In this document: in pieces, positions 3,703 through 44,559 of the stretch
Position numbering within the stretch: position 1 is the first letter of the stretch
How the letters are laid out: each line of letters begins with the position of its first letter
Assembly: GCA_944363565.1 (NCBI GenBank)
Contig: CALVUI010000002.1
Span: forward strand, 124,001-188,000
Direction of reading: 5' to 3'
Source: an uncultured Bacilli bacterium
GTDB taxonomy: Bacteria; Bacillota_I; Bacilli_A; RFN20; CAG-826
Length of the DNA: 64,000 nucleotides
Notes under the pieces: generated by a model
What the model saw: the letters and a program-made list of their open reading frames with translations, nothing else
Told to the model about the DNA's origin: nothing
Database searches by the model: none
Translations under genes and position numbers: made by a program

Positions 3703-4296
3703 TCACTGATAATCCTTGACCACCCTAAGGACGATGGCCTTTTTGGCTTCGAGTTCGGTATAGGGGACGAGGTGACTCACGTCATAACCGAGGTCTTTGA
3801 GATGTTTGATTCCCTCTTTGGTCCGCATCCAAAGGGCGATGTCGCCCCTTTCGAAACGTTCCTCTTCCTTGAGGGGCTTGAACGAGGTCCCAAAATAAAA
3901 CATCCCCTTACGGCCGTAGAAATAGTTCTCGGGCCTAAAGTCGATCGTGAATTTGCTAAGCCTTGCGAACTTGGCCAGACGGAAGATTTCCTCGTAAATC
4001 CCCTCTTCTATTTCTTCTTTTAGCAAAAGTCCGGGAACGGGAGCGACCTCGACGTATTTCATGAGGATAACTCTGTTATCTCCATCGGCCTTTTTGATCT
4101 TCGGCCCATCGACCCCGATCTTCTTGAGGAATTTCTTGGCCTTCAAAACCTCCTCGTAACGTCCTTCCTGGGGGATGGCCAGGAAGTATGGCTTTCCCTT
4201 CTTGTCCTTGCAGATATAGACATCATGATCATAGCCCTTGAAGAAGAGGTCGCCTTCTTCATAAAAATAGGTTTTCGATCCGACTTTCTTTTCCAT
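3703..4296 (-). CDS. Hypothetical protein, possibly a small degenerate protein-kinase-like fold
   Basis: I do not recognise a named family. The 197 residues are soluble and charged. An N-terminal beta-rich part (VYICKDKKGKPYFLAIP) is followed by a helix and a hinge-like RVILMKYVE. The segment FTIDFRPENYF near residue 130 has the D-x4-N spacing of a kinase catalytic loop, followed by GMFYFGTSF where a DFG would be expected. This suggests a pseudokinase-like fold, but that is inference. The ATG at 4296 is chosen; an in-frame GTG at 4314 would add six residues. It is divergent from the P-loop kinase at 4377 and lies immediately upstream of prs. Confidence 0.7.
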   Translation of the reverse strand: MEKKVGSKTYFYEEGDLFFKGYDHDVYICKDKKGKPYFLAIPQEGRYEEVLKAKKFLKKIGVDGPKIKKADGDNRVILMKYVEVAPVPGLLLKEEIEEGIYEEIFRLAKFARLSKFTIDFRPENYFYGRKGMFYFGTSFKPLKEEERFERGDIALWMRTKEGIKHLKDLGYDVSHLVPYTELEAKKAIVLRVVKDYQ

Positions 4297-4363
4297 AGCG
4301 CCATTTAAGGGCACCTTCTTGCTAAAAGCAAGATAGGTGTTTCCCCCATTCCCTTGAAGGTGA

Positions 4364-4369
4364 TATATT
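4364..4369 (+). promoter_or_regulatory. Extended -10 of the P-loop kinase gene at 4377
   Basis: TGA-TATATT ends seven bases before the ATG at 4377. The alternative TTG start at 4368 falls inside this hexamer and is therefore disfavoured. Confidence 0.55.
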
Positions 4370-4376
4370 GCAGGCG

Positions 4377-4886
4377 ATGCGGACTCTAATCCTCCTAAGC
4401 GCGATTCCCGGATCGGGGAAATCGACCTACGCCAAGCACTATGCGGCCACCCACCCCAATACCTACATCGTCTCCAGCGACGAAGTGAGAAAAAGGATCG
4501 CCGGGTCCTTAGCCAAGTTCGACAAGGAACCCGAAGTCTGGGAAACCTTCCTAAGTGACATCAATTCGTACGCAAAGAAGTTCGAAGACGTCACCGTCAT
4601 TGCCGACGCCACCAATCTCCAGAACAAGTACCGTCGTTATTACTGCGAGGCCACGCCGGCCTTCGACCGCCACGTCCTGGTTTACTTCGACATCCCCTTC
4701 GAGGTCTGCCTGGTCCAAAACAAAATGCGGGAAGGTGACCGGGTTGTCCCCGAAAAGGCGATGCTCAAATTAAAGGAAGAATTCGAACCCGTCAGCGAGG
4801 AGGTCAAAGCCCTCTATGACGAATACATCGTTTTGGGTCCCGATTACGTCTCTCCCCTCATCAAGAAGATCAGGGGTGAGAACTAG
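4377..4886 (+). CDS. AAA_33-type P-loop kinase (polynucleotide kinase/zeta-like NTPase), paralog A
   Basis: A 169-residue single-domain P-loop protein. It starts MRTLILLSAIPGSGKST, so the Walker A motif occupies residues 10-16. VSSDEVRKRI follows, as in polynucleotide-kinase/zeta-like NTPases, where the Asp contacts Mg or substrate. VIADATNL is the second family signature, and a lid with REGDRVVPE follows. Such proteins phosphorylate small molecules or RNA ends; the substrate cannot be read from sequence. It resembles the protein at 8974-9462. Its 3' end overlaps the convergent gene at 4883 by four bases. Confidence 0.85.
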   Translation: MRTLILLSAIPGSGKSTYAKHYAATHPNTYIVSSDEVRKRIAGSLAKFDKEPEVWETFLSDINSYAKKFEDVTVIADATNLQNKYRRYYCEATPAFDRHVLVYFDIPFEVCLVQNKMREGDRVVPEKAMLKLKEEFEPVSEEVKALYDEYIVLGPDYVSPLIKKIRGEN

Positions 4887-32319: not shown

Positions 32320-32478
32320 TTCGACGATCTCCCAGACGATCAGGGCGGCGATAACCACGCAGAGCCCGACTATCAGGAAGAATATCCGCTTTCTGGAAAG
32401 CTTTTCTTCCGCCAGTTTCTTCGGGCTTTTGGCCTCCTGGGCCTCGTCCTGGATCAGGGGGTTTCTTTCGTCCGCCAT
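32308..32478 (-). CDS. 56-residue single-span membrane protein coupled to asnS
   Basis: The short frame begins MADERNPLIQDEAQEAKSP, continues with a basic stretch (KLAEEKLSRKR), and ends in one transmembrane helix (IFFLIVGLCVVIAALIVW) with EIVELFL at the C-terminus. Its ATG shares one base with the asnS stop (TGATG), the same coupling seen for queA/tgt. A typical tail-anchored layout: soluble charged N-terminus, C-terminal helix. It overlaps the convergent gene by 12 bases. Function unknown; coding is supported by the coupling and the clean amphipathic design. Confidence 0.6.
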   Translation of the reverse strand: MADERNPLIQDEAQEAKSPKKLAEEKLSRKRIFFLIVGLCVVIAALIVWEIVELFL

Positions 32479-33851
32479 CAGTACTTGAGGTTCCCGTAGT
32501 TCCGCGGATAGGGTTCGGTATCGCGGATGTTGCCCACGCCGGTGATGTAGGAAAGGAAGCGGTCAAAGCCGAGGCCGAAACCGCTGTGGGGGCAGCCCCC
32601 GTAACGCCTGAGGTCGAGGTACCATGATAAGCCTTCGATATTCCCGGCCTTTTCCATCTTGGCCTTGAGGACTTCGTAGATGTCTTCCCTTTGGGAACCG
32701 CCGACGATCTCCCCTTCTTCCGGGACCAAGAGGTCGCAGGCCGCCACCGTCTTGCCGTCGGGGTTTTCCTTCATGTAGAAGGCCTTGATCTCCTTGGGGT
32801 AGTCGATGAGGAAGACCGGTCCCCCGACCACGACTTCGGTAAGATAGCGTTCGTGCTCGCTTTGGAGGTCCATCCCCCATTCGATCTTCGAGTAGTCGAA
32901 GTGGCGTCCTTCCTTCACGGCCTTTTCCAAAATGACGATGGCCTCACTATAGGTCATGACCTTGAACTCGCTATGGAGGACCTTGTGGAGTTTCTCCTTG
33001 AGGCCCTTGGCCACAAACTTGTCGAAGAAATCCATCTCATCGGGGCAATGCTCCTCGACGTAGGCGATGCAGTGCTTGACCAGGGCTTCGATGATGGCCA
33101 TGTCACCACTAAGGTCACAGAAGGCCATCTCCGGTTCGATCATCCAGAATTCGGAGGCGTGGCGCGGGGTATTGCTCCTCTCAGCCCTGAAAGTGGGACC
33201 GAAGGTATAGACGTTGCGGTAGGCTAGGGCAAAAGGCTCGACGTGGAGTTGGCCCGAGACGGTCAAGGACGCCGGGACCCCATAGAAATCGGTATATGGG
33301 TTCTTCGACCTGGTGACGACCTCAAAGGACTGTCCGGCCCCTTCGGCATCGTTGGTGGTGATCTCCGGGGTATGGACGTAGACGAAGCCTCTCTCGAAGA
33401 AGAAGGAATGGATGGCATAGGCCAAGACCGAACGGACCCGGTAGAGGGCGTTGAAGGTATTGGTCCGGGGACGGAGATGGGCGATTTCCCTTAAGAACTC
33501 GAAACTATGGCGTTTCTTCTGGAGGGGATAATCGTCGGCGACATCGCCGATCAGTTCGAAGCCCGTGACCTTCAGTTCGAACGGTTGAGGGGCATTGGGA
33601 GTGACGACCAGTTTCCCAGTCAGGGAGACAGCCGCCCCGGTCCGGGCTTTCTTCATCTCCTCATAGAGGGGGTTATCCCCGCCATAGACGGCTTGGAGGT
33701 TGAGGAAAGAAGTCCCGTCGTTGAGGGAGAGGAAGCCGATCTTCCCGGAATCGCGGTTGGTTTTGACCCAACCCTCGACTTTGATATCCCCTTCGGCGAG
33801 CGTTCCCTCGTGGAGGGAGGCAAAAAGGTCTTTGATCAAGGTTGCTTGCAT
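32478..33851 (-). CDS. asnS: Asparaginyl-tRNA synthetase
   Basis: Class IIb synthetase, 457 residues. It has an N-terminal OB-fold anticodon domain (DIKVEGWVKTNRDSGKIGFL). Motif 1 lies near FVYVHTPEIT, motif 2 is FGPTFRAERSNTPRHASEF, and motif 3 is GFGLGFDRFLSYITGVGNI. RAERSNTPRHASEFWMIE marks AsnRS rather than AspRS. The start ATG 33851 has TGC-TATAAT ending seven bases upstream, so it is leaderless and has its own promoter just downstream of the tsaD stop. Confidence 0.97.
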   Translation of the reverse strand: MQATLIKDLFASLHEGTLAEGDIKVEGWVKTNRDSGKIGFLSLNDGTSFLNLQAVYGGDNPLYEEMKKARTGAAVSLTGKLVVTPNAPQPFELKVTGFELIGDVADDYPLQKKRHSFEFLREIAHLRPRTNTFNALYRVRSVLAYAIHSFFFERGFVYVHTPEITTNDAEGAGQSFEVVTRSKNPYTDFYGVPASLTVSGQLHVEPFALAYRNVYTFGPTFRAERSNTPRHASEFWMIEPEMAFCDLSGDMAIIEALVKHCIAYVEEHCPDEMDFFDKFVAKGLKEKLHKVLHSEFKVMTYSEAIVILEKAVKEGRHFDYSKIEWGMDLQSEHERYLTEVVVGGPVFLIDYPKEIKAFYMKENPDGKTVAACDLLVPEEGEIVGGSQREDIYEVLKAKMEKAGNIEGLSWYLDLRRYGGCPHSGFGLGFDRFLSYITGVGNIRDTEPYPRNYGNLKY

Positions 33852-33872: not shown

Positions 33873-34889
33873 CTAGGAAAGTTTCCGATAGTCTTCGATC
33901 TTCCAATTGGGATCGGGCGAGATATCGAGGGGGGCGAAGAAATTCATGTCGTAGAGATGGGAGGCGACCTTGGCGATCATGGCCGCGTTGTCGGTCGTGC
34001 ACCAAAGGGGCGGAAGCAAGACCTCGATCCCCGAATTCAAAAGCCTTCTTTCCATTTCCTGACGGAGATAGGAGTTGGCGCTGACGCCACCCGAAAGGAC
34101 GATCTCCTTGACGCCTTTGTCCCCAGCCGCCTTCAAGGCATGGCCGACGATCATCTCGATGGCCCGGTCCTGGAAGCTCCGGCACATGTCGGGAACCCGG
34201 ATCTCCTCGCCCCGGCTTTTCAAAGTATGGACGAGGTTGATGACCGCGGTCTTGAGACCCGAATAGGAGAAGTCATAGGTCCCTTCCTTACGCAGAGGCA
34301 AGGGAAGGTCATAGGTCGGCTTTCCGATCTTGGCGTTTTGGTCGATCGGTAGGCCGCCCGGATAAGGAAGGCCCAGTACCCTCGCCACCTTGTCGTAGCA
34401 CTCCCCGACCGCATCGTCGCGGGTCTGGCCGATGACTTCGAATTCCATGTGGCGCGGCATGTAGACCAGTTCGGTATTGCCACCCGAAACGACGACCGCC
34501 AGAAGGGGGAACTTCAATTCCCCGATGTACTCGTTGGCGTAGATATGGCCCGCCAAATGGTGGACGGCGATGAGGGGCTTGTCGTAAAGAAGAGCCAGGG
34601 TCTTAGCGGCCTGGAGGCCGACGTGGAGGCAGCCCACAAGACCCGGACCCCGGGTCACTGCGAAGGCATCGAAGTCCTTGAGATCCATTTTGGATTTTTT
34701 CAAAGCTTCCTGAAGGCAGACCCCGATGTTTTCGACGTGGAGCCGCGAGGCGATCTCCGGCATCACGCCCCCGTATTTCCGGTGGACGTCGATCTGGGAA
34801 GAAATGACGTTGGCCAAAAGTTCGTCGCCCTTCAAGACGGCGACCGCGGTTTCGTCACAGCTGCTTTCGATTGCGAGAATGTTGCTCAT
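33873..34889 (-). CDS. tsaD: tRNA t6A threonylcarbamoyltransferase TsaD
   Basis: 338 residues. It transfers threonylcarbamoyl to A37 of ANN-decoding tRNAs together with TsaB and TsaE. The N-terminal MSNILAIESSCDETAVAVL is diagnostic. The metal-binding HxxxH is His111/His115 in VHHLAGHIYANE. VTRGPGLVGCLHVG and VVSGGNTELV (ATP site) follow, and VLSGGVSANSYLR is in the second half. It overlaps rimI by four bases. It is last in the operon tsaE-tsaB-rimI-tsaD. Confidence 0.97.
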   Translation of the reverse strand: MSNILAIESSCDETAVAVLKGDELLANVISSQIDVHRKYGGVMPEIASRLHVENIGVCLQEALKKSKMDLKDFDAFAVTRGPGLVGCLHVGLQAAKTLALLYDKPLIAVHHLAGHIYANEYIGELKFPLLAVVVSGGNTELVYMPRHMEFEVIGQTRDDAVGECYDKVARVLGLPYPGGLPIDQNAKIGKPTYDLPLPLRKEGTYDFSYSGLKTAVINLVHTLKSRGEEIRVPDMCRSFQDRAIEMIVGHALKAAGDKGVKEIVLSGGVSANSYLRQEMERRLLNSGIEVLLPPLWCTTDNAAMIAKVASHLYDMNFFAPLDISPDPNWKIEDYRKLS

Positions 34890-35332
34890 AAACCCTTCAC
34901 CATGTAGAGGGCGTCCTTCTTCCCTCCGTAATATCCTTTCTTTCTGGTCGCTAGGACATAGCCCCGGCTTTCGTATAAGGCGATGGCGGCCTTGTTCCCC
35001 TCTTCGACTTCGAGGGTCGAGGTCGAGACCCGTTCCGGATAGTCCTTGAAACTCTTCTCCATTTCGTCGAGGAGGGCTTTCGCGTAGCCTTTGCGCCTAC
35101 TCTCTGGCTTGACCCCGAGGCGGTAGATGGTCGAGGAGTCGAAGGTCACCGCATATTGGAGGTAAGCTTGAATGCCTTCCTCGTCATCGAGCCGCAAAAA
35201 GACCGCAAAAGGGTTGTCCTTCAATTCTTTTTTCAAATATCCGGCATCCCAAGGGGCTTCGGGGAAGCAGGCGGCTTCCACCTCCGCAACCTCCTCCATG
35301 TCCTTTTCTTTGCACCTAGAGATGCGGTACAT
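34886..35332 (-). CDS. rimI: RimI-like ribosomal-protein N-acetyltransferase
   Basis: 148-residue GNAT. FPEAPWDAGYLKKEL is typical of RimI. The acetyl-CoA loop is LGVKPESRRKGYAKALL (R/Q-x2-G-x-A type). LEVEEGNKAAIALYESRGYVLATRKKGYY is the C-terminal signature, seen at residues 109-137. It acetylates N-terminal amines, classically of ribosomal protein S18. The gene sits between tsaB and tsaD, its usual place in Bacillota, overlapping both. Confidence 0.92.
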   Translation of the reverse strand: MYRISRCKEKDMEEVAEVEAACFPEAPWDAGYLKKELKDNPFAVFLRLDDEEGIQAYLQYAVTFDSSTIYRLGVKPESRRKGYAKALLDEMEKSFKDYPERVSTSTLEVEEGNKAAIALYESRGYVLATRKKGYYGGKKDALYMVKGL

Positions 35333-35984
35333 CGTAGGTCTCCTTGAGGTAGCTGGGCTTCGCGGACAAGGGATCGGTCAGATAGATCTTCTTCACCCCG
35401 TCTATGAGGTTATGAAAAACGCCATCTTCGGGATTCTCGAGGCCCAGATATCCGACTTCCCCACCGACCCGGTAACCGGGGTGGTCCTTGAGGATCTTCA
35501 GGGCTTCCGCGTTTTCCATCGCCTGGTCGGGAAGGAGGCAATTGTCCCCTTGATAGACGGCTACGTAACTCCTCGAGTTCCGTGCATCCATGAAGACCAT
35601 CGTCGGTACTTCTCCTTTCTTGAGGAGATAAAGGGAAGAAACACAGTAGAGGGGACACTTCAGGGCCAGGGCCACCGTCTTGGCGACCGTCAGACCGACC
35701 CGGACCCCGGTGTAGGAACCAGGACCCTTGCCGACCACGACATAGGCTATGTCGAGAGGGGCAAAGCCGCCTTCTTCAAGGAGGGCCTTGATGGAGGGAA
35801 CCAAGAGTTCGCTTTGCTTTTTGAGGACGTCTTTCTCTTCGACGTAATGCAGAATCCCATCCTTATAAAGACCGACCGCCAGGTTCTTCGAAGAAGTGTC
35901 GAGCAAGAGGCCAAGCCCCTCCTTCAGACACGGATCGCTAGAGGCCGGGAAATACCCGACTTCCTTTCTTTTGACTTCGATCAT
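35316..35984 (-). CDS. tsaB: tRNA t6A biosynthesis protein TsaB
   Basis: 222 residues. It is the non-catalytic partner of TsaD. GLGLLLDTSSKNLAVGLYK corresponds to the usual N-terminus, and VVVGKGPGSYTGVRVGLTVAK is the family signature. The protein has about 23 extra residues before the normal start; no closer start codon is apparent, and the ATG at 35984 overlaps the tsaE stop by four bases, so the extension is probably real. It overlaps rimI by 17 bases. Confidence 0.93.
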   Translation of the reverse strand: MIEVKRKEVGYFPASSDPCLKEGLGLLLDTSSKNLAVGLYKDGILHYVEEKDVLKKQSELLVPSIKALLEEGGFAPLDIAYVVVGKGPGSYTGVRVGLTVAKTVALALKCPLYCVSSLYLLKKGEVPTMVFMDARNSRSYVAVYQGDNCLLPDQAMENAEALKILKDHPGYRVGGEVGYLGLENPEDGVFHNLIDGVKKIYLTDPLSAKPSYLKETYDVPHL

Positions 35985-36460
35985 AGGAAAGCCTCCAATT
36001 TCTTCAAAACTTCGACGTACTTCTCGCCCTTGGCCGCCAAGGTGAACTCCCTGGTGTTTTCGCCAGTCGGTTCGATGGAAATCTCGAGATGGTTATCGGG
36101 GATATAGGAAGCGATGAACTCCGGCCACTCGATGGCCGAGACCCCGTCCCCGAAGAGATAGTCCTCGAGGCCGATGTCGGCGGACCCTTGGTTCAGGCGG
36201 TAGGCATCGATGTGGTAGAAGGGCAGCCTCCCTTCCTCGTAGACCTTGAGGATGTTGAAGGTCGGGGAGGTGATGGCTTCCTCGATCCCAAGGCCCTTGG
36301 CTAGGCCTCCGCAAAAGAGGGTCTTGCCGGCCCCGAGATCCCCGTTTAGGAGGACGATGGCACCCGGGAACAAAAGGTGGCCGAGCTTCTCTCCGAGCGC
36401 CAAGGTCTCCTGAGGCCCCTTGGAGAGGCATTTGATTTCAAAAAAGGAACTGTTACTCAT
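35981..36460 (-). CDS. tsaE: tRNA t6A biosynthesis ATPase TsaE
   Basis: 159 residues. Walker A is LNGDLGAGKTLFC near residues 40-47. AITSPTFNILKVYE and the Tyr/Asp-rich FYHIDAYRLN are TsaE hallmarks, and AIEWPEF follows. Its ATPase drives turnover of the TsaBD complex. The start is ATG 36460; a longer frame to 36478 would run through the promoter. TGG-TATACT ends eight bases upstream. First gene of tsaE-tsaB-rimI-tsaD, divergent from the ferredoxin reductase gene by only 38 bases. Confidence 0.95.
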   Translation of the reverse strand: MSNSSFFEIKCLSKGPQETLALGEKLGHLLFPGAIVLLNGDLGAGKTLFCGGLAKGLGIEEAITSPTFNILKVYEEGRLPFYHIDAYRLNQGSADIGLEDYLFGDGVSAIEWPEFIASYIPDNHLEISIEPTGENTREFTLAAKGEKYVEVLKKLEAFL

Positions 36461-36468
36461 TCTTGCCA

Positions 36469-36474
36469 AGTATA
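36469..36474 (-). promoter_or_regulatory. Extended -10 of tsaE, leaderless spacing
   Basis: Minus strand TGG-TATACT ends eight bases before ATG 36460 and lies partly within the palindrome at 36471-36488. Confidence 0.6.
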
Positions 36475-36488
36475 CCACTAGTGGTATA
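36471..36488. promoter_or_regulatory. 18-base perfect palindrome joining two divergent promoters
   Basis: TATACCACTAGTGGTATA is exactly self-complementary. Each half contributes the extended TGG and most of a -10 hexamer, for tsaE to the left and the ferredoxin reductase to the right. The two predicted start sites are only about 38 bases apart, so one polymerase or one repressor bound here would exclude the other direction. Confidence 0.6.
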
Positions 36489-36490
36489 AA
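36485..36490 (+). promoter_or_regulatory. Extended -10 of the ferredoxin reductase gene, leaderless spacing
   Basis: TGG-TATAAA ends eight bases before ATG 36499. Confidence 0.55.
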
Positions 36491-36498
36491 AATCTTCC

Positions 36499-37374
36499 AT
36501 GCGTGAATTCATCATCGTCGGTGGGGGACCGATCGGACTATATATGGCCGGGGTTTTGGAAAGCCATGGAAGGGACTACCTCCTTTTGGAAGCCAATAGG
36601 AGCGGAGGCCAGATCCACCTCTACCCCGAAAAGCTGGTGACCGACGTCCCGGCCTTTGGTTCCCTAAAGGCCAAGGAAATCCTCAGAAAACTCCTAAAGG
36701 ACATCGATTCTGCAAGGATAATCGAGGGCTGCACCGTTAATTCCATCAGGAAAAACACCGTCGAAACTTCCCTCGGGACCTATGGGGCCAAGACCATCAT
36801 CATCACTACCGGACGGGGCCATTATGAGCCCCGGAAGCTGGGACTTGAGGGCGAAGAAAAAGCCTCCAACATCCTCTATGCCCTCCTGAGGCCCGAAGAG
36901 CTTAGGGGAAAGAAGGTCCTCATCTTCGGAGGCGGTGATTCCGCCCTCGACTGGGCCAAGGAGCTAAGCGATATTTCCGAGGTTCACCTGATCCACCGGA
37001 GAAGGGAATTCCGGGGCAATCCCAAAACCATCGAGGGGGCAAGGGTCAACCTCCATCTCCCCTATATTCCCTATGAACTCGAGGTTAAGGGTTCTTTGGT
37101 CAAGGCGGTCATCATCGAAAATGTCGAGACCAAGGAACATCTGTCTTTGCCTTGCGACGTCGTCTTGGTCAACTTCGGGGCCGTTCCGAAAATCGAAACC
37201 TTCGGCCTTCCCTCCAGGGAGGACCATCTCGGTTTCTCGGTCGATGATCATTTCAAAGTCGAGGAAGGGATCTACGCCTGCGGCGACTGCGTGCAGGTCG
37301 AGGGCTACGCCAAAAGGATGGCGCCCGGCTTTAAGGAAGCAGACGCTATTTTGCAGGAGGTACTTTCGGCTTGA
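36499..37374 (+). CDS. Ferredoxin--NADP+ reductase, thioredoxin-reductase-like
   Basis: 291 residues with the two-dinucleotide-domain layout of thioredoxin reductase. FAD site IIVGGGPIGLYMAG, LLLEANRSGGQIHLYPEK, NADPH site VLIFGGGDSALDWAKEL with HRRREFRG, and YACGDCVQVEGYAK. It lacks the CxxC redox pair (compare the protein at 17471), so it is the Bacillota YumC-type ferredoxin/flavodoxin reductase, which could supply electrons to anaerobic enzymes such as the NrdG activase (inference). The 3' end overlaps the convergent Ntdp gene by 29 bases. Confidence 0.88.
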   Translation: MREFIIVGGGPIGLYMAGVLESHGRDYLLLEANRSGGQIHLYPEKLVTDVPAFGSLKAKEILRKLLKDIDSARIIEGCTVNSIRKNTVETSLGTYGAKTIIITTGRGHYEPRKLGLEGEEKASNILYALLRPEELRGKKVLIFGGGDSALDWAKELSDISEVHLIHRRREFRGNPKTIEGARVNLHLPYIPYELEVKGSLVKAVIIENVETKEHLSLPCDVVLVNFGAVPKIETFGLPSREDHLGFSVDDHFKVEEGIYACGDCVQVEGYAKRMAPGFKEADAILQEVLSA

Positions 37375-42727: not shown

Positions 42728-43393
42728 TTAGCTGTTGACCCAGTCAATAGGGGCCACCCCATGATCGGCCAAATAGGCATTGGCTCGCGAAAACTGATGG
42801 AGGCCAAACCACCCCCCACGGTTGGCACTTAGGGGCGAAGGATGGACGCTTTCGAGGACCAAACGGTTGGAATTCGTGATTTTGGTGGCGTATTTGCGGG
42901 CAAAAGAGCCCCATAAGAAGAAAACGATGGGCTGGTTCAAGGTGTCGATGTAGGAAAGGGTGAGGTCGAGGAAGGCCTCGTATTCCTTCCTTTTGTGGCT
43001 GAGGGGTTTATGGGCTTCGACCGTCAGATAGGCATTGAGGAGGAGGACGCCTTGGGTAGCCAAATACGTTAGATCACCGGACTCGAAGTCCATCTTGACC
43101 TTGAGGTCGTTTTCGATCTCCTTGTAGATGTTGATGAGGGAAGGGGGAACGTCGAGACCCCGGGGGACCGAAAAGCTCATCCCCATGGCTTCCCCGGGAT
43201 TGTGGTATGGGTCCTGGCCGATGATGACGGCCTTAAGGGTTTTGGGATTCGTGAAGCGGAAGGCCTGGAAGATCATGTCCTTGGGCGGATAGATGGTTTT
43301 GGAGGCATATTCCTCATTCAAAAATGAGGAAAGGGCCTTGGCCTCGGAGGTCTTTTTAAAGGCCTGGAAGAGGGGCGACCAGTCTTTGAGCAT
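42728..43393 (-). CDS. ung: Uracil-DNA glycosylase
   Basis: Family 1 UDG, 221 residues, removing uracil from DNA. The water-activating motif is GQDPYHNPG (Asp61, His64), with GMSFSVP, GVLLLNAYLTVE, FFLWGSFA, and the second catalytic motif HPSPLSANRG (His184). The ATG at 43393 has GATACT ending six bases upstream and no ribosome binding site. It precedes the thiT riboswitch on the same strand and is divergent from the glycosyltransferase gene at 43456. Confidence 0.96.
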   Translation of the reverse strand: MLKDWSPLFQAFKKTSEAKALSSFLNEEYASKTIYPPKDMIFQAFRFTNPKTLKAVIIGQDPYHNPGEAMGMSFSVPRGLDVPPSLINIYKEIENDLKVKMDFESGDLTYLATQGVLLLNAYLTVEAHKPLSHKRKEYEAFLDLTLSYIDTLNQPIVFFLWGSFARKYATKITNSNRLVLESVHPSPLSANRGGWFGLHQFSRANAYLADHGVAPIDWVNS

Positions 43394-43399
43394 AAAGGG

Positions 43400-43405
43400 A
43401 GTATC
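43400..43405 (-). promoter_or_regulatory. -10-like hexamer of ung, leaderless spacing
   Basis: Minus strand GATACT ends six bases before ATG 43393. Confidence 0.45.
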
Positions 43406-43442
43406 GCCCTTTCTTTCTCTTTTTGGAAGATGGTTTATTGCC

Positions 43443-43448
43443 TATACT
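43443..43448 (+). promoter_or_regulatory. -10 of the glycosyltransferase gene at 43456, leaderless spacing
   Basis: TATACT ends seven bases before ATG 43456. Confidence 0.55.
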
Positions 43449-43455
43449 TCTAGCG

Positions 43456-44559
43456 ATGAAAATCCTTTGGGTCTTCAACCACCCGGCCCCGTATAAAGTC
43501 GATTTCTTCAATGAACTCGGAAAGCACGCCCAACTGCGGGTCCTCTTCGAACGGGGACGGGAGACCGACCGCGAAAAGGCCTTCTATTCCTCTAGGCCCC
43601 TCAACTTCGAGGCCGTCTTTCTCAAATCCCTGTCCCTTGGGCCCCACAATTCCTATAGTTTCGGTTTGTTGCCCTACCTTAAAGAACCCTATGACGTCAT
43701 TGTCATCAACGGGTGGTCGACCTTCGGGGAAATGAAGGCCATATCCTACTTGAGGAAAAAGGGGATCCCCTATGTCTTCGCCATCAATGGGGGGATCATC
43801 AAGAAACATGGCTGCCTTCCCCTGGAGAAACTCAAGGAACATTACATCAAGGGGGCCGACCTCTATCTCTGTCCCGACCAAAACTCCGCCCGTTACCTGA
43901 CCCATTACGGGGCAGAGGAAAACCGCATCCGGTTCTTCCCCTATTCCACCGTCTTCCAAAAAGACGTAAGAAAGGCCTCCCTGACGAAAGAAGAAAGAAG
44001 GGCATTCTATGAACAAAGGGGGATCAAGGCCCGGAATGTCTATGTCTCGGTCGGCCAATTCATCAAGAGAAAAGATCCCTTGACCCTCATTGAATACTTC
44101 AAGGACGCCCCCAAGGAAGACGCCTTGGTTTTGCTCGGCTCCGGACCCTTGAAAGGCAAGATGGAAAAGGAGATCAAAAAACTTGGTCTCCATAACGTCT
44201 ACCTGCCCGGCTATAAGGACCGGGAGGAAACCTTGGCTTACCTCGCCCACACCGAGGCCTCGATCTTCCTGACAAAAGAAGACATCTACGGCCACGTTGT
44301 CAATGAATCCCTGAGCCAGGGTACCCCGGTCATCGCCTCCCCCTTCAGCAACGCTGCCCTTAAACTCATCAAAGACGGGTCCACGGGCTATATCATCAAA
44401 AACAAAGATGAATTTTTAATGGCGTTGCAAAATAGCCTAAACGAAGACATCCGTGAAAACTGTCTAGTACAAAGCCAAGAAGAAACCATCGAAAAGATGG
44501 TTGAAAGTCATCTGGCCATCTTTGAGGAATACCTGCATGAAGATCATCTATCTCGGTAA
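43456..44559 (+). CDS. Glycosyltransferase family 4 (surface glycan)
   Basis: 367 residues, GT-B fold, starting MKILWVFNHPAPYKVDFF. The C-terminal Rossmann half has YVSVGQFIKRKDPLTLIEYF, LVLLGSGPLKGKM, VYLPGYKDREETLAYL, and the nucleotide-sugar site with the E-x7-E pattern around EDIYGHVVNESLSQGTPVIAS, followed by STGYIIKNKDEF. Cytoplasmic, retaining. It overlaps the next transferase gene by 23 bases. Sugar specificity unknown. Confidence 0.88.
   Translation: MKILWVFNHPAPYKVDFFNELGKHAQLRVLFERGRETDREKAFYSSRPLNFEAVFLKSLSLGPHNSYSFGLLPYLKEPYDVIVINGWSTFGEMKAISYLRKKGIPYVFAINGGIIKKHGCLPLEKLKEHYIKGADLYLCPDQNSARYLTHYGAEENRIRFFPYSTVFQKDVRKASLTKEERRAFYEQRGIKARNVYVSVGQFIKRKDPLTLIEYFKDAPKEDALVLLGSGPLKGKMEKEIKKLGLHNVYLPGYKDREETLAYLAHTEASIFLTKEDIYGHVVNESLSQGTPVIASPFSNAALKLIKDGSTGYIIKNKDEFLMALQNSLNEDIRENCLVQSQEETIEKMVESHLAIFEEYLHEDHLSR

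Follow-up and report, generated by a model that had tools for sequence, protein, structure and literature searches.

The intergenic spacer between the divergent genes tsaE and FNR (ferredoxin-NADP reductase) probably consists of two separate, back-to-back promoters of the sigma-A type, both predicted to be leaderless and both expressing their units constitutively. Each promoter would carry the extended -10 element TGGTATA, and the opposition of the two elements at a distance of 4 bp would itself generate the palindrome at the center of the spacer. The spacer lies in the window, by which we mean the whole stretch of 64,000 bases that was analyzed; the window belongs to a genome of 1,258,617 bases (G000), of which 464 kb, made up of the window and 20 stretches, was sampled.

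Gene Arrangement and Predicted Promoters

The spacer (TCTTGCCAAGTATACCACTAGTGGTATAAAAATCTTCC) occupies positions 36461–36498 (38 bases) and is flanked by the ATG of tsaE at 36460 on the minus strand and the ATG of FNR at 36499 on the plus strand, from which the two genes diverge. The genes on either side are as follows.

36499–37374, plus strand: FNR, a ferredoxin-NADP reductase (thioredoxin-reductase-like type), 291 amino acids, predicted leaderless
35981–36460, minus strand: tsaE, 159 amino acids, PF02367 and TIGR00150 above cut-off, first gene of the t6A operon, predicted leaderless
35316–35984, minus strand: tsaB, TIGR03725 above cut-off, overlapping tsaE by 4 nt
34886–35332, minus strand: rimI, TIGR01575 just above cut-off
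33873–34889, minus strand: tsaD, TIGR03723 above cut-off
32478–33851, minus strand: asnS, TIGR00457 above cut-off, 21 nt downstream of tsaD

FNR was identified by means of a profile of 13 relatives, the best matches of which were the solved ferredoxin-NADP reductases 6gas and 3lzw. Based on its spacing, asnS is probably carried on the tsaE-tsaB-rimI-tsaD transcript. The t6A operon and FNR are both housekeeping units. The starts at 36460 and 36499 match the proteins of relatives. A GTG at 36478 was ruled out as the start of tsaE; alignment with G007, the closest species, places the start at the ATG of 36460, and the GTG falls within the promoter. At the far end of FNR, its 3′ end overlaps that of a convergent NtdP-like (DUF402) gene by 29 bases (window positions 37346–37374).

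A sequence-only reading of this DNA had claimed a perfect 18-base palindrome between the genes that supplies an extended -10 to each strand. The palindrome is present, and each of its halves forms an extended -10 situated 14 nt, a leaderless distance, from the corresponding ATG. The elements of the spacer are listed below.

36471–36488, both strands: perfect 18-base palindrome TATACCACTAGTGGTATA, two back-to-back TGGTATA extended -10s around CTAG
36482–36490, plus strand: extended -10 of FNR, TGG TATAAA, hexamer at 36485–36490, first base 14 nt from the FNR ATG
36469–36477, minus strand: extended -10 of tsaE, TGG TATACT, hexamer at 36474–36469, first base 14 nt from the tsaE ATG
36463–36468, plus strand: likely -35 of FNR, TTGCCA, matching the consensus at 5/6 positions, 16 bp from the FNR -10
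36479–36480, both strands: central TA of the palindrome, with T at the predicted -18 position on each strand

The two -10 hexamers (36469–36474 and 36485–36490) are separate, lying 10 bp apart with no overlap. From the positions of these hexamers we infer transcription starts at approximately 36497 on the plus strand and 36462 on the minus strand, separated by some 35 bp and each roughly 2 nt upstream of its own ATG. Transcription would begin some 1–3 nt from each ATG, and both mRNAs would be leaderless or nearly so. The -35 of FNR would sit beside the region in which tsaE transcription begins. No Shine-Dalgarno-like sequence was found before the start of either gene, nor was a -35 recognizable for the tsaE promoter, where the best candidate matched at 3/6 positions with an unsuitable spacing of 19. 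A strict two-hexamer scan of the spacer gave no promoter on either strand because the scan demands a final T, which is missing on the plus side, and a -35, which is missing on the minus side. MerR-type regulators need a long promoter spacer, and control of this type was ruled out by the 16-bp spacer of the FNR promoter.

Conservation in Relatives

A search with the FNR protein gave matches in 58 of 61 genomes, from which 30 loci (L002–L031) were obtained, 25 of these (L002–L026) being strong matches. An adjacent, divergent tsaE was present at 20 of the 25 strong loci, comprising all 16 loci of the genus and L023–L026 from three other families. At L018 tsaE is found 1.1 kb from FNR, and no tsaE was found within the fetched 1.5 kb at L014, L019, L020, and L021; the weaker FNR matches (L027–L031) are without tsaE.

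Among the FNR starts of the genus, 14 of 16 reach a -10 score of 4 or more at 10–16 nt upstream (TG counting as one point), and none of the 16 has a Shine-Dalgarno sequence at the chosen start. For tsaE, a good -10 is positioned at 13–16 nt in 8 of the 16 loci, seven loci have a TATAAT-like hexamer further up (giving a short leader), and the G015 locus has a Shine-Dalgarno leader. In the other families, FNR has a Shine-Dalgarno sequence in L023–L025, and in L026 its start is preceded at 12 nt by a -10-like hexamer. The spacers of L023–L026 measure 55, 84, 193, and 193 bp, indicating that close packing of the two genes is not required.

The exact palindrome occurs in G000 and G007 only. The G004 spacer has TATACCACTAGGGTATA, which is one base shorter, and 13 of the 16 loci in the genus lack the palindrome; these retain -10-like hexamers near the starts but not the symmetry. 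Conservation, proposed earlier as a check on the palindrome, is thus lacking in most of the genus, and in the closest species G007 it extends well beyond the -10 halves. The conserved segment is a single block.

36462–36488, both strands: 27 bases identical between G000 and the orthologous G007 spacer

When the 464 kb of G000 were compared with 80 kb of G007, this block was the longest exact noncoding match outside of tRNA-Ala and tmRNA, longer exact matches occurring in coding DNA. The adjoining 60-base gene-start windows of the two genomes are 42–60% identical (37–87% over the windows of both genes). Twenty-seven identical bases amid gene starts of 42–60% identity indicate that this block is under constraint. 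The block includes the tsaE -10, both TGG motifs, the FNR -10 at four of its six positions, the -35 (identical in G007 and missing in G004), and the two -18 T positions, and takes in almost all of the bases that a pair of interleaved promoters would require.

Predicted Leaderless Starts across the Genome and Genus

Genes in the 464 kb of G000 were called with our own simple hexamer caller, and the leaderless fractions reported here are rough for this reason. We defined a unit-first gene as one that either diverges from its upstream neighbor or lies 60 or more bases away from it, and a good -10 as one with at least 5/6 matches to TATAAT, counted within a window 11–15 nt before the start. A good -10 was found in this window for 31 of 160 unit-first genes, compared to 7.1 expected from random 5-nt bins; a count of 31 was never reached in 20,000 permutations. 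The -10 is at 12 nt in 15 of these genes, at 13 nt in 11, and at 14 nt in 4, such that the distance found for tsaE and FNR is rarer (4/31) than the modal 12–13 nt. FNR itself is not among the 31 because its TATAAA lacks the final T.

A similar result was obtained for five relatives within the genus, which when pooled had a good -10 in 33 of 183 unit-first genes (8.2 expected; 0 of 20,000 permutations). The individual values were 10/36 for G007, 9/45 for G004, 6/30 for G018, 5/32 for G029, and 3/40 for G015, the last of these showing no clear excess when taken alone. Five genomes from three other families of the order gave 17 of 165 at 11–15 nt compared to 20.8 expected, no excess overall, with a spike of nine -10s at exactly 12 nt. 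Within the units of G000, 98 of 186 genes have a Shine-Dalgarno sequence by a loose pattern. These data suggest that leaderless first genes and inner genes using Shine-Dalgarno sequences coexist in the genus, and the leaderless starts look real. The claim that tsaE and FNR are both leaderless draws support from this genome-wide signature, from the lack of a Shine-Dalgarno sequence, and from the -10 distance, for which about 12–14 nt before the start codon would be expected and 14 nt was found on both sides; the starts themselves remain predicted. In the openly available literature we found no report of leaderless genes in this lineage, and the accessible portion of one paper (PMC5397173) treats the Firmicutes at the phylum level only.

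Divergent pairs were also scored, a -10-like hexamer here being one with a score of at least 4 with TG counted. Among the 32 pairs in the 464 kb, such a hexamer was present at 11–15 nt on both sides in 9 and on one side in 12. One more tightly spaced pair, likewise with each -10 at a leaderless distance, was found at G000:C1:45067-45101 (L125:5067-5101), with a spacer of 35 bases. This second pair has GATAAT at 12–13 nt from each start, and is not palindromic; one of its products is a putative membrane protein, the other a short protein resembling an acetyltransferase. Within the window, the divergent pairs at 43393–43456 and 4296–4377 (spacers of 62 and 80 bases) also have a -10-like hexamer near each start.

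Origin of the Palindrome

Two opposed TGGTATA elements with a 4-bp gap account for 14 of the 18 bases of the palindrome, indicating that it arises mainly because two identical extended -10s are placed in opposite orientation, with only the central CTAG as an extra. In the accessible text of PMC10268837, a T at -18 is reported to aid promoters that rely on the -10, and the central TA of the spacer would place such a T on each strand. The C and G of CTAG, which are kept in G000, G007, and G004, would be superfluous if the sequence served as promoters only. A cruciform or RNA hairpin was set aside, the predicted transcripts beginning outside the palindrome.

We consider it unlikely that the symmetry is due to chance, that is, that two ordinary promoters simply happen to match. 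In favor of chance, two similar extended -10s already yield 14 of the 18 bases. Once the two TGGTATA elements are in place with 4 bp between them, the center would be palindromic by chance with a probability of about 0.07. Perfect palindromes of at least 18 bases are also not unique in G000, 12 being present in the 464 kb. What speaks against chance is that the sequence is conserved exactly in G007 amid diverged gene starts. When the 38-base spacer was shuffled, a palindrome of at least 18 bases was recovered in 28 of 200,000 base shuffles. We regard as quite unlikely the alternative in which a dimeric regulator binds the palindrome as its operator, controls the two genes together, and represses through the overlap with the -10s. 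The perfect dyad symmetry would suit such a regulator, as would the conservation between G000 and G007 past the -10 halves, the retention of the central CTAG in G004, and the number of intergenic palindromes of at least 18 bases, which at five is above the approximately 0.2 expected by chance. However, the G004 center is one base short, shifting the halves against each other, and 13 other genus loci keep the gene pair without the palindrome. The neighboring genes (tsaE, tsaB, rimI, tsaD, asnS, FNR, and the NtdP-like DUF402 gene) include no regulator. A regulon search that allowed up to 3 mismatches in the G000 genome and up to 2 across 37 genomes of the genus identified only the tsaE/FNR locus and its G007 ortholog; G000 thus has no second site, and the site is found in 2 of the 37 genomes, once in each. 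It is this occurrence once per genome that makes a shared-regulator operator unlikely, leaving an operator private to this locus as a small possibility.

We also searched the 37 genus genomes for other symmetrical promoters, as the earlier reading had suggested, using the pattern TATANCA, 0–14 bases, TGNTATA, with the reversed pattern as the control. There were 45 forward sites and 54 reversed-control sites; with no enrichment over the control, the search gives no indication of a class of symmetric double extended -10 sites. The 19 pattern loci that were fetched (L173–L191) were mostly coding, one-sided promoters, or terminator-adjacent, and none of them had the tsaE/FNR layout. Only L175, L182, and L190 had frames of at least 60 amino acids starting close on both sides, those of L190 being short and probably spurious.

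Other repeated or conserved sites were observed in the course of these searches. A 16-base site exemplified by TATATCAAATGATATA is conserved in several genus genomes; it was seen around position 1501 of L174, L177, L184, L187, and L189. The site adjoins a probable terminator, lies 27 nt before the gene for a probably exported protein of 448–491 amino acids, and resembles a promoter in a single direction. Motifs of the form GGAAATCGGTTTC / GAAACCGCTTTCC recur a short way outside the window, at L119:932-950, L119:1062-1079, and L119:12434-12454, and are also present in G007; we take these motifs to resemble the operators of LacI-type sugar regulators. No match to GGAAANCGNTTTCC at 1 mismatch was found within the window.

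Possible Mutual Exclusion at the Two Promoters

In geometric terms, each -10 is located approximately 23–28 bp upstream of the opposite predicted start, a distance that is inside the usual footprint of polymerase. One polymerase should therefore cover both promoters and probably exclude simultaneous occupancy. Polymerase at either promoter would cover the other, making occupancy exclusive; at ordinary promoter strength this exclusion would probably cost little, and both housekeeping units would be expressed constitutively. The proposal that polymerases could not initiate both ways at once is thus plausible with respect to the proximity of the promoters, and its regulatory consequence is unsupported.

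That consequence would be a true mutual-exclusion switch, in which polymerase occupancy reciprocally sets the two promoters and so couples t6A synthesis to ferredoxin redox supply. We consider such a switch very unlikely, even with predicted starts only about 35 bp apart, an FNR promoter that has both a -35 and an extended -10 and could be strong enough to compete, and a gene pairing that is old, being found at all 16 genus loci and at a further four loci from three other families. Most of the 16 loci of the genus do not keep the symmetry and tight spacing, the spacers of the other families reach 55, 84, 193, and 193 bp, and both gene sets are housekeeping. Competition was also negligible at basal activity among five E. 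coli bidirectional promoters with closer starts, 10–23 bp apart; as described in the available part of PMC12825309, output in one direction changed little when the opposite direction was weakened and was suppressed only when the opposite direction was strengthened. The coupling of t6A modification to a redox gene that had been suggested for this locus accordingly went unsupported, and regulatory coupling of tsaE and FNR is possible at most. We are just as doubtful of a version in which selection keeps a symmetric pair of strong leaderless promoters such that polymerase serves either the t6A operon or FNR at any one time, a reciprocal switch that would need no regulator, in a genus where starting first genes without a leader would have become a main mode. 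Two separate constitutive promoters remain the preferred explanation.

Comparison with Known Systems

The tsaE/FNR locus provides a natural compact case, with two complete and separate promoters within 38 bases and both mRNAs predicted to be leaderless, outside the class with starts 7–25 bp apart. It would cleanly test when competition between promoters begins to matter. A wider point, which may be worth more, is that this genus of uncultured Bacilli seems to start about one-fifth of its unit-first genes leaderless, a habit that contrasts with the sampled relatives from other families.

Bidirectional promoters with a shared -10 were described by Grainger and colleagues, with divergent starts 7–25 bp apart according to the accessible text of PMC10268837. 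As far as can be judged from the available portions of PMC12825309 and PMC10268837, the tsaE/FNR spacer is like these promoters in having symmetric -10 DNA and, as predicted here, divergent mRNAs, use by one polymerase at a time, and a T at -18. It differs in the distance of about 35 bp between its predicted starts and in having separate -10s, 10 bp from each other, placing it outside the shared -10 type on both start distance and -10 overlap. In M. tuberculosis, the accessible sections of PMC3898074 describe closely juxtaposed divergent promoters, a leaderless divergent pair formed by prpD and its regulator, and an increase in promoter activity due to an extended -10. The resemblance lies in transcription of both genes from their start codons (predicted here) and in promoters driven by the -10; unlike the M. 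tuberculosis pair, tsaE and FNR belong to a different phylum, are two housekeeping units without a regulator, and have palindromic promoters. Overlapping and mutually exclusive divergent core promoters are also found in the EcoRV restriction-modification system (PMC5333194, available part), to which the exclusion predicted here is comparable, whereas EcoRV relies on a C protein to shift the balance and has a transcript with a leader. The kind of layout is thus already known in bacteria, and the tsaE/FNR locus is a very compact and unusually symmetric case of it.
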